A stretch of DNA of 64,000 nt, taken from positions 1 through 64,000 of the forward strand of contig CAIUOP010000075.1 in assembly GCA_903900805.1 (NCBI GenBank), given 5' to 3'. This document shows positions 15,653 through 18,740 of this stretch, piece after piece (position 1 is the first letter of the stretch; each line of letters opens with the position of its first letter). This DNA is from an uncultured beta proteobacterium. Its GTDB lineage: Bacteria > Pseudomonadota > Gammaproteobacteria > Burkholderiales > Burkholderiaceae. The notes beneath the pieces were generated by a model. It was not told the DNA's origin and did no database searches. It saw nothing but the letters and a program-made list of their open reading frames with translations. Position numbers and translations under genes: made by a program.

Positions 15653-16975
15653 ATGAACCGTAGTTTTTACACCATTATGGCGGCGCAATTTTTTTCGTCG
15701 CTTGCCGATAACGCTTTGCTGATCGCAGCAATTGCCCTTCTGGCCCAGCTCCAAGCTCCGGCCTGGATGACCCCTTTACTGAAATTGTTCTTCGTTTTGT
15801 CCTATGTAGTGCTAGCAGCCTTTGTGGGTGCCTTTGCTGACTCCCGCCCCAAGGGAAACGTCATGTTTATAACTAATACGATCAAATTTGTAGGTTGTGT
15901 AGTGATGCTGTTTGGAAGTCACCCATTATTGTCTTATGCAATCGTTGGCCTTGGGGCCGCCGCTTACTCCCCTGCCAAATACGGTATTTTGACTGAATTA
16001 CTGCCTCCAGAAAAACTGGTGGCCGCCAATGGTTGGATTGAAGGTCTGACCGTCGGCTCAATCATTTTAGGCACTGTACTAGGTGGCGTCCTCATTAGCA
16101 GCACAGTATCTGGAAGTCTCTTGGCATTAGATGTGCCAAGTATGGATACTGGTATTGATACCCCCGCAGAGTCAGCCATTCTCATCATCATGATGATTTA
16201 TATCGTAGCAGCGATGATTAATCTGAAGATTCCAGACACTGGAGCTCGCTATGTCTCCCAAAAAACCAACCCTATTGAGCTGATCAAAGATTTTTCTGTT
16301 TGCTTTAAAACTTTATGGAATGACCGCTTAGGACAAATCTCATTGGCAGTAACCACTTTATTTTGGGGTGCTGGTGCTACTTTGCAATTTATCGTGATTA
16401 AGTGGGCTCAAGTTTCTTTGCATATGAATTTATCCCAAGGCGCTATTCTGCAAGCCATCTCAGCCGTTGGTGTAGCTGGAGGCGCCGTCTGGGCTGCTTC
16501 ACGTGTCCCGCTTCGCCATTCATTAAAAGTACTGCCTTATGGCATTACCATGGGCCTAGTGGTTTGTGTCATGGCCGTCTACAACTCTAATATGCTGCCG
16601 GACATAACCATCATGACTATTGGCAAGATGGAAATCAGTCTGAATTTATTGCCTGCCTATTTCTTACTCATTGTTGTGGGTTGGCTTGCAGGTTATTTTG
16701 TCGTGCCGATGAATGCGCTACTTCAGCACCGTGGTCACGTTCTGATGTCTGCTGGCCACTCTATTGCAGTTCAAAACTTTAATGAGAATATTTCAGTTTT
16801 AATGATGCTGGCAATCTATTCGCTATTGATATGGTTTGATGTGCCAATCCCTTACGTCATTATTGGTTTTGGATTAACCGTCAGCTGCATCATGTGGCTT
16901 GTAATCAAGCGTCACGCTAGAAACCAGGCTGAATATGACTCTATGCACTTGATCGGTGAGCATAAGCAGCATTAA
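15653..16975 (+). CDS. lplT: Lysophospholipid transporter LplT (MFS)
   Basis: 440 aa multi-TM, AAQFFSSLADNALLIAAIALL, PAKYGILTELLPPEKLVAANGWIEG. Confidence 0.92.
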   Translation: MNRSFYTIMAAQFFSSLADNALLIAAIALLAQLQAPAWMTPLLKLFFVLSYVVLAAFVGAFADSRPKGNVMFITNTIKFVGCVVMLFGSHPLLSYAIVGLGAAAYSPAKYGILTELLPPEKLVAANGWIEGLTVGSIILGTVLGGVLISSTVSGSLLALDVPSMDTGIDTPAESAILIIMMIYIVAAMINLKIPDTGARYVSQKTNPIELIKDFSVCFKTLWNDRLGQISLAVTTLFWGAGATLQFIVIKWAQVSLHMNLSQGAILQAISAVGVAGGAVWAASRVPLRHSLKVLPYGITMGLVVCVMAVYNSNMLPDITIMTIGKMEISLNLLPAYFLLIVVGWLAGYFVVPMNALLQHRGHVLMSAGHSIAVQNFNENISVLMMLAIYSLLIWFDVPIPYVIIGFGLTVSCIMWLVIKRHARNQAEYDSMHLIGEHKQH

Positions 16976-16993: not shown

Positions 16994-17506
16994 TCAAATA
17001 TTTTGTAGTACTGACTTTGCTAGCAAAAGATCCTGCCAGAGCAAGGCCTTATCCTTTGGCTTAGCAAGCAACTGAGCTAAATCAAATGAAGCAATCACCG
17101 GAATTTCTTCATTAGAGCCATTATTTAAAGCCAAAATAGTTTCACGTAATTGAGGTAATGAATCCTTCTCGCCGGTAATTTTTTGAGCAACAGAGCCGCC
17201 AAAGGCAAGCGCAACCACTGGCAAACCATCCTCTGGAACTTGAAGTTGATGTAAATCATCACCAGCATTCTTCCAAGACCACTCTTGCGGGCTTAAGCCT
17301 AGCAACCTAATAACGCTCTGAAAAAGAACCTGCGCATCACCCTGTGGCGCAGTTCCAAAGAACCACCAATGCCCTTGAGATATTTTTTCGGCTGCTGGCG
17401 AGGCTTCTATCGGGGTGTTGACTGTAGGCGGCGCTTGCACAGCATCCTTAGCGGCCCACTCGGTGATGCCCATTTCTTTTAAGAAGGCTGAATTTGTATT
17501 ACTCAT
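16994..17506 (-). CDS. HolD-like (DNA polymerase III psi)/degenerate UDG-like protein, putative
   Basis: 170 aa, overlaps rimI stop by 4 nt; N-terminal LKEMGITEWAAKD and C-terminal KDKALLWQDLLLAK resemble E. coli HolD from memory. Confidence 0.6.
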   Translation of the reverse strand: MSNTNSAFLKEMGITEWAAKDAVQAPPTVNTPIEASPAAEKISQGHWWFFGTAPQGDAQVLFQSVIRLLGLSPQEWSWKNAGDDLHQLQVPEDGLPVVALAFGGSVAQKITGEKDSLPQLRETILALNNGSNEEIPVIASFDLAQLLAKPKDKALLWQDLLLAKSVLQNI

Positions 17507-18018
17507 GTCTCTAGCTTAATCGATTTAGCCATCACTAGCGCATCCTCCCTGCTTCCTAATTGGGGATCGGCTGGATAGTAGTTTTTGCGTATACCAATCT
17601 GCTCGTATCCAAGCTTTTGGTACATGGTGACTGCAGCAATATTTGATGGCCTTACTTCCAGAATAATTCTAGGCATATTTTGCTGGGCGGCAACCCCTTC
17701 AATTGCAGCCATCATTCTGGAGGCCAATCCCAATTTACGCAACTTTGGCGATACCGTGATATTGAGTAAATGCAATTCGTCAACAGCAGGAAAAAGAATG
17801 CAATAAGCCCATAAGACTGCTGGATCTAAATATGATCCTTTGATAGATTGATCCACTTGCGGGCGGATGCAATATGCCCAGTGCCCTGCCGCCAAAGAAT
17901 CCGAAAAGTTTCCTTTGGTCCAAGGGTGCAAATGCGATACCGCTTCTATTGCTAAAACAGCATCTAAATCTGCAGTTTGCATCGGCAGAAAAGAAAGTTC
18001 AGCAATACCCTCAGACAT
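17503..18018 (-). CDS. rimI: Ribosomal protein bS18 alanine N-acetyltransferase
   Basis: GNAT fold; HPWTKGNFSDSLAAGH, LRKLGLASRMM, LEVRPSNIAAVTMYQKLGYE. Confidence 0.93.
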   Translation of the reverse strand: MSEGIAELSFLPMQTADLDAVLAIEAVSHLHPWTKGNFSDSLAAGHWAYCIRPQVDQSIKGSYLDPAVLWAYCILFPAVDELHLLNITVSPKLRKLGLASRMMAAIEGVAAQQNMPRIILEVRPSNIAAVTMYQKLGYEQIGIRKNYYPADPQLGSREDALVMAKSIKLET

Positions 18019-18740
18019 TACTTCAATGCCTCAAGACGCTCTTGCGTTGTTAGTGCTACCTTGTCTCGGACATATAGTGGCTCAAGCTCGCGGACATGGA
18101 TTTGTCTACCTTCATTGAACCCTTGTATAGCGCAGTCTAAGATACCTAAAGCAGTTAAATGGATTTGCGCATCAAGTGCGTTAGATGCTAGCGTTGTATT
18201 AGCAAACAATCGATCGCCATAGACTTCTATGGCACTACCCGCTACAAATTGAACCTCGGTAAGATCTAATTGTTCAGGCTTTGATAAATGAATATTGCCA
18301 ATACGTTTTGCTAAATCTTGTTGCCGTCCTGGAGATTCGTATTTAGCCCAGTAAATTTCATCCATACGCGCATCGATCGCAATCACAAAATGACTCGGCT
18401 TGGCATTTTTAAAATGAGTTGTTTTAATTAATTGCGCTGCAATGGCGTCGAGACTAGCAACTGGCAAGATCGGTAGGTCGCATGAGATAGCTAAGCCTTG
18501 AACTGCGGCTACACCGAGCCTAACGCCAGTAAACGCGCCTGGACCAATGCCAACAGCAATTGCATCAAGCTCGTTTAACCCTATGTTTGCTTCCTCCAGA
18601 AGTTTCTCTACCAAAGGTAAAAGTAGCTGGCTAGCGCCAGCCGATACCAACTCATGTCGGAGGATTGGTGATTTATCACCTAAAGATAAAGCCACCGAAC
18701 ACCAAGCTGTTGAGGTGTCGATGGCTAAGATGCGCGTCAA
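18018..18740 (-). CDS. tsaB: tRNA t6A biosynthesis protein TsaB
   Basis: AIDTSTAWCSVAL, GIGPGAFTGVRLGVAAVQGLA; adjacent to rimI. Confidence 0.94.
   Translation of the reverse strand: MTRILAIDTSTAWCSVALSLGDKSPILRHELVSAGASQLLLPLVEKLLEEANIGLNELDAIAVGIGPGAFTGVRLGVAAVQGLAISCDLPILPVASLDAIAAQLIKTTHFKNAKPSHFVIAIDARMDEIYWAKYESPGRQQDLAKRIGNIHLSKPEQLDLTEVQFVAGSAIEVYGDRLFANTTLASNALDAQIHLTALGILDCAIQGFNEGRQIHVRELEPLYVRDKVALTTQERLEALK

Follow-up and report, generated by a model that had tools for sequence, protein, structure and literature searches.

In Escherichia coli, holD, the gene for psi, adjoins rimI and lies upstream of it, and the "cryptic" psi of Pseudomonas aeruginosa belongs with HolD (PF03603). 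Of the PDB entries referred to below, 1EM8 is the E. coli chi–psi heterodimer, 3SXU is a structure of E. coli psi, and 3GLI holds the psi peptide; the DnaX-binding peptide corresponds approximately to residues 2–28 of E. coli psi.

The chi subunit occurs in alpha-, beta-, and gammaproteobacteria, whereas psi is found in gammaproteobacteria only and may have diverged past detection elsewhere; the N terminus of psi binds domain III of three tau subunits (PMC3290774). Some genomes without a recognizable psi have chi genes in which the site for psi binding is conserved (PMC3197488), and chi–psi sits on the DnaX collar (PMC12871192).

The window analyzed here is a 64,000-nucleotide stretch of DNA from an uncultured beta proteobacterium. 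One of its genes, denoted X, very probably encodes the psi subunit (HolD) of Polynucleobacter, with a core that stems from a family-4 uracil-DNA glycosylase (UDG) and with a UDG form of psi in most relatives. Its short, unannotated product is, with near certainty, the psi that had long been missing from the replication machinery, and on the best reading the missing betaproteobacterial psi is a UDG that probably docks on the clamp loader. Psi as a decayed UDG is the best reading of the homology and gene order that we observe, from which we infer the direction from UDG to psi.

Gene X and its neighborhood

X is an open reading frame on the minus strand with its ATG at 17506 and its stop at 16994. 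It is the third gene of a tsaB-rimI-X cluster, in which tsaB lies upstream of rimI, and it differs from E. coli-type holD loci in being located downstream of rimI instead of upstream. An earlier note on this DNA had listed the reading frame of 170 residues, and the translation is exactly as quoted there; the 4-nt overlap with rimI that it described was also borne out. The features of the locus are the following.

15653–16975, plus strand: MFS transporter, lplT-like, convergent to X (PF07690)
16994–17506, minus strand: psi (HolD)-like protein X, 170 aa (open reading frame; PF03603; TIGR00758; kept in the genus)
17503–18018, minus strand: rimI (TIGR01575, 92.4 bits), marker of the holD-rimI or rimI-UDG neighborhood
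18018–18740, minus strand: tsaB (TIGR03725, 168.7 bits)
17444–17500, minus strand: putative psi-type clamp-loader-binding peptide, codons 3–21 (L9, M12, G13, I14, W17; alignments and models)
17372–17443, minus strand: linker, codons 22–45, of a length that varies among relatives (pLDDT)
17000–17371, minus strand: decayed family-4 UDG/psi core, codons 46–169 (alignment, Foldseek, HHalign)
17018–17092, minus strand: former motif-B (HP) region and last helix, codons 139–163, ASFDLAQLLAKPKDKALLWQDLLLA (alignments)

Close relatives of the protein in a named collection are from Polynucleobacter, and the gene is present in 36 of 37 genomes of the same genus, the window genome (G000) being counted. 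The most fitting name for the gene is Polynucleobacter holD, and its product is a family-4 UDG in decayed form.

Similarity to HolD and to family-4 UDG

PF03603 (DNA_III_psi) matches the window protein over residues 4–158 (E = 3.4e-4, 21.3 bits). This score lies just below the gathering cut-off of 22.2 bits, which counts against an identity as psi and distinguishes the protein from known HolD; orthologues from the genus pass the cut-off (L036, 26.4 bits; L030, 31.7 bits; L031, 23.5 bits). The UDG profile TIGR00758 (NCBIfam UDG_fam4) matches residues 96–167 (E = 0.0018) and detects divergent relatives from the genus with E values from 4.1e-9 (L031) to 2e-7. Compared with HolD, the core is more UDG-like in sequence, and its C-terminal half still matches TIGR00758. 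Profile searches return HolD and UDG-4 alike, and both resemblances pointed out in the earlier note are real. Judged by these profiles, each is more than chance, and the two have one cause.

The same note had stated that the GEAPG and HPS motifs are lost, which is correct. Neither motif A (GE[AG]PG) nor motif B (HP[AS]) was found in the window protein by pattern and alignment checks, and as for the Fe-S cysteines, there is no cysteine anywhere in its 170 residues. In an alignment to UDG, the motif A insert and the Fe-S cysteine segments are deleted from the core. The protein, which is shorter than family-4 UDGs and has no motif A, no HP motif, and no Fe-S cysteines, cannot be an active UDG. 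Motif B still reads YHP[ED]HLLK in the genus relatives L030 and L031. In alignments, ASFDLAQLLAKPKDKALLWQDLLLA of the window protein is the counterpart of SPALTDLRANPTARAALWQQI in psi and of TYHPAYLLRxPxDKAxAWxDL in UDG, and SPALTDLRANPTARAALWQQI of E. coli psi aligns with TYHPAYLLRxPxxKxxAWQDL in UDG.

PF03603 has a single match in the window genome (assembly 92% complete); a separate holD, which would count against the earlier hypothesis, was not found there. A profile search of the same assembly gave no match to any other family-4 UDG, and HolC (chi) is present with 104 bits. A single-sequence search of the PDB with the window protein returned nothing useful.

Predicted fold

An AlphaFold2 model of the window protein, computed from an alignment of 44 sequences with UDGs among them, has a pLDDT of 81.3 and predicts a helix (residues 3–11), a disordered linker (residues 22–38), and an α/β core. 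Because this alignment held UDGs, we made a control model from 30 Polynucleobacter-type sequences only, with no UDG among them. Its fold and its Foldseek list were unchanged, and a bias of the first model by UDG sequences was therefore rejected. The pLDDT of the linker is below 50 over residues 22–38 in the first model and 21–40 in the second.

Searched with Foldseek against 350,542 PDB chains, the first model matched 35 UDG-4/UdgX chains at a probability of 1.00, with 4zby and 1ui0 as the best matches, followed by E. coli psi (1em8_B, 1.00; 3sxu_B, 1.00; 1em8_D, 0.98). Beyond UDG-4/UdgX and E. coli psi, nothing among these chains scored above 0.4. For the psi core fold, the probability to 1em8_B and 3sxu_B is 0.99–1.00, with a TM-score by target of 0.57–0.63; global TM-scores by query are modest (0.4–0.55), a range to be expected of a shrunken domain whose N terminus is floppy. 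With family-4 UDG (TIGR00758; 1UI0, 4ZBY) and UdgX, the window protein shares the predicted core fold, collinear over residues 46–169. Among the chains searched with Foldseek, UDG-4 and psi are the only ones that both AlphaFold models resemble, in favor of the earlier proposal.

The N-terminal peptide

Residues L9, G13, I14, and W17 of the window protein stand in identical register to E. coli psi. Across 30 aligned species of the genus, L9, E11, G13, and W17 are invariant, I14 is kept in at least 90%, and the N-terminal peptide is among the most conserved positions of X.

We built a peptide model from 15 HolD-type peptides alone and scored N-terminal regions against shuffles. All 37 gammaproteobacterial rimI-linked UDGs scored above every shuffle (median 19.3 bits), and 33 of the 36 betaproteobacterial ones exceeded the 99th percentile of the shuffles, 26 of them also the maximum. 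None of 26 UDG-4s from other classes that are not linked to rimI rose above the shuffle maximum; 15 of these weakly passed the 99th percentile via YLREIGV, a conserved motif that does not include the Trp. Scored in this way against shuffles and unlinked UDGs, a likeness of the peptide by chance was rejected, and family-4 UDGs away from rimI lack the psi peptide. A simple regular expression for the peptide gave the same trend and missed some true cases.

In a set of family-4 UDGs not near rimI, mostly from family f230 of the same phylum (L223, L226–L227, L229–L237, L241, L245, L247–L248, and L250), the proteins start with a peptide of the YLREIGVQTPVSL type. It is strongly conserved and equals the psi peptide in its first half, with the Trp missing. 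UDGs L224, L225, L228, and L235 start with LLxFYxDIGVDxAV instead. Both kinds of start may be partner-binding peptides of another and perhaps older sort, for which the clamp loader is again a possible target.

Homology of the cores

Profiles were compared with HHalign after the N-terminal peptide had been cut from the HolD proteins. The HolD core aligned with the UDG core at 97.8%, and a strict HolD core, from which HP-bearing intermediates were left out, still reached 95.9%. The core of the window family gave 99.2% with the UDG core and 96.0% with the HolD core. Controls for HolD (reversed profiles and 100 column shuffles) reached at most 0.7%, and those for the window family at most 1.9%, except for one shuffle in 100 at 27.8%. 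By these alignments, HolD and UDG cores are homologous over their length, independent of the peptide.

Relatives at the rimI locus

With one rimI-linked UDG (P0002, L042) as the query, a match was found in 217 of 249 Burkholderiales genomes. In the 30 best loci that were read, rimI always lies directly upstream of the UDG, tsaB is also present in 29, and a UDG-4 with a psi peptide fills the tsaB-rimI-X slot in all 30. When the UDG starts are set beside the stop of rimI, each shows a psi-like peptide, e.g. MKDRRALILKEMGITEWRLRP (L042) and MTSDERRALMLREMGITPQWHLRR (L080). An lplT-like convergent neighbor also follows the intact UDG in L076 and L086; because these loci share it with the window, X is the positional orthologue of the intact UDG, which in the relatives occupies the genomic slot of the window gene. 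A scan of GTDB genomes, with a C-terminal pattern only, revealed the same arrangement in Paraburkholderia, Chromobacterium, Propionivibrio, Accumulibacter, Massilia, Duganella, Thiobacillus, and others. A further tsaB-rimI-UDG cluster of betaproteobacterial type (L143, CAJCHO010000117.1) is titled Mycobacteriaceae and probably lies on a mis-binned contig.

In gammaproteobacteria, positions 3–26 of PF03603 match the N termini of UDG-containing open frames of 232–258 residues (L105–L109); in L106, L107, and L109, rimI directly follows the UDG, as it follows holD in E. coli. A psi-UDG profile (A3, E ≤ 1e-10) matched 215 of 274 class-level genomes, the window protein being among the matches (3.3e-12); linkage to rimI was read in the best 30 loci only, so that the other matches may include unlinked UDGs. 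In all 30 of the best Gammaproteobacteria loci, rimI lies directly downstream of the UDG, which thus takes the holD position.

No genome in the class-level survey held a separate detected HolD together with a psi-UDG. Six genomes were matched by both searches; in five, the HolD match is the UDG's own peptide, and in the sixth (G368), both matches appear to be one short psi (L102/L251). Separate HolD and psi-UDG are apparently mutually exclusive. HolC accompanies the UDG in 199 of the 215 genomes (Fisher p = 1.7e-9, phylogeny ignored), a statistic that is not independent of phylogeny because HolC and UDG are both widespread by descent. Counting against the psi reading, 22 psi-positive genomes, some of them incomplete, have no detected HolC. 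Another 28 genomes bear HolC and neither form; a divergent-psi profile matches 15 of them, 12 with rimI at the same locus and several with HP vestiges.

Intact and decayed forms

A pattern check finds the full set of motif A, motif B, and four cysteines in 29 of 36 betaproteobacterial and in 37 of 42 gammaproteobacterial and other rimI-linked UDGs, so that most of these proteins are apparently intact. Across orthologues at this locus, the forms grade from a UDG that has a psi peptide and is apparently intact down to a bare psi, and intermediates retain HP vestiges (L030, L031, L100, L101, and L264). Decay is seen in Polynucleobacter, in the betaproteobacterial genus g70 (L252), in the betaproteobacterial family f34 (L034, 137 aa), and in several gammaproteobacterial lineages. 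The tree parts unlinked UDG-4s from rimI-linked UDGs at a single branch (SH-aLRT 96), and Polynucleobacter lies on a long unresolved branch. The short forms evolve fast and are poorly resolved in this tree, so that the count of independent decays is one that we infer.

L252 (G127, 991–1890) encodes a betaproteobacterial rimI-linked protein of 299 aa with a psi peptide and a long proline/alanine-rich linker. Its core reads TYDPNYLL (HP now DP) and has neither motif A nor an Fe-S site; this decay, outside Polynucleobacter, is apparently independent. Motif A is partly degraded (GEMPN, GEAPK, GDLPS, GDAPD) in the rimI-linked UDGs L105, L106, L146, L152, and L167, possibly as an early decay or a changed specificity.

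Family-1 Ung, encoded in the window genome at G000:C16:55079-55747, occurs in only 32 of 120 Burkholderiales genomes. Yet it is present in all three Polynucleobacter matches seen (G000, G016, and G024) and in G127, where the rimI-linked UDG is decayed. These occurrences are suggestive only; a takeover of uracil repair by Ung may have come first and left the UDG core free to decay.

Discussion

The earlier hypothesis of a diverged betaproteobacterial psi, possibly of UDG-like ancestry, is supported by the profiles, the fold, the lone HolD match, HolC, and the same-locus series. It had missed that the UDG form persists in most relatives and carries the psi peptide, and that the same holds for psi of the E. 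coli type. With HolD, the window protein shares the docking peptide in identical register, a flexible linker, the core fold, the linkage to rimI, and a chi encoded in the genome.

In the proposed mechanism, the product of X would serve as psi in the DNA polymerase III clamp loader of Polynucleobacter. With its N-terminal peptide it would dock into the collar of three DnaX subunits, and the disordered linker would lead to a small α/β core that binds chi (HolC). As the core would bind chi and chi would bind SSB, psi would connect the clamp loader with a lagging strand that SSB coats. The core itself would be a family-4 UDG that no longer has an Fe-S cluster or catalytic motifs. The gene still seems to encode an intact, peptide-bearing family-4 UDG in many Gammaproteobacteria and in most Burkholderiales other than Polynucleobacter, where an enzyme that excises uracil would thus sit on the clamp loader in the role of psi. 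Several lineages (Polynucleobacter, betaproteobacterial g70 and f34, and E. coli-type gammaproteobacteria) would have lost the UDG activity, with the docking peptide and the last helix retained through decay. We consider it reasonably likely that psi in most Burkholderiales and many Gammaproteobacteria is an active family-4 UDG that builds uracil excision into the replisome, that E. coli-type and Polynucleobacter psi are independent dead remnants, and that in the beta/gammaproteobacterial clade the ancestral form is the UDG.

The match of the C-terminal half to UDG-4 profiles and the loss of the catalytic residues would also suit a degenerate UDG relic or DNA-binding pseudo-enzyme, its HolD-like N terminus being chance or a generic short helix. 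We regard this as highly improbable, since L9, E11, G13, and W17 are invariant across the genus, the HolD-only peptide model recognizes rimI-linked UDGs and not unlinked ones, and a relic would not persist in almost every species of Polynucleobacter (36 of 37 genomes). The linker makes the peptide separable, and the peptide might hold a UDG, or what remains of one, on the clamp loader without the core binding chi, as a repair adaptor rather than psi. Such an adaptor is unlikely, given that the UDG and HolD cores are homologous along their length without the peptide, that E. coli psi uses this very core to bind chi (1em8), that HolC is found in 199 of 215 UDG-positive genomes, and that the searches described above found no other psi.

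A reverse direction, in which a UDG captured the peptide and replaced an older psi at the rimI locus, would leave the two cores alike by fold only. The root of the UDG tree is unfixed, with the unlinked UDG-4s on one side of a single branch, which leaves room for this order of events. We nevertheless hold it to be quite improbable: the core-only HHalign values lie far above the controls, for strict HolD too; L030, L100, L101, and L264 combine the peptide, an HP vestige, and a reduced core in one protein; and loss of the cluster and motifs is easier than their gain.

A partial parallel is offered by vaccinia D4, which belongs to another UDG family than family-4; here too a UDG was recruited into a replication machine, but in a poxvirus, with another partner, and in a separate recruitment. 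PMC1936997 describes D4, together with the processivity factor A20, as a replication-machine UDG with a catalysis-independent role. In the open literature we found no link between psi and UDG; subscription journals were outside the scope, and an earlier publication is possible.

The missing betaproteobacterial psi can probably now be named, as the family-4 UDG beside rimI or, in Polynucleobacter, its decayed form. This gives psi an origin and suggests a reason for its fast evolution. It also predicts a base-excision enzyme that would sit on the clamp loader beside SSB, and many "uracil-DNA glycosylase" annotations could need a new reading.
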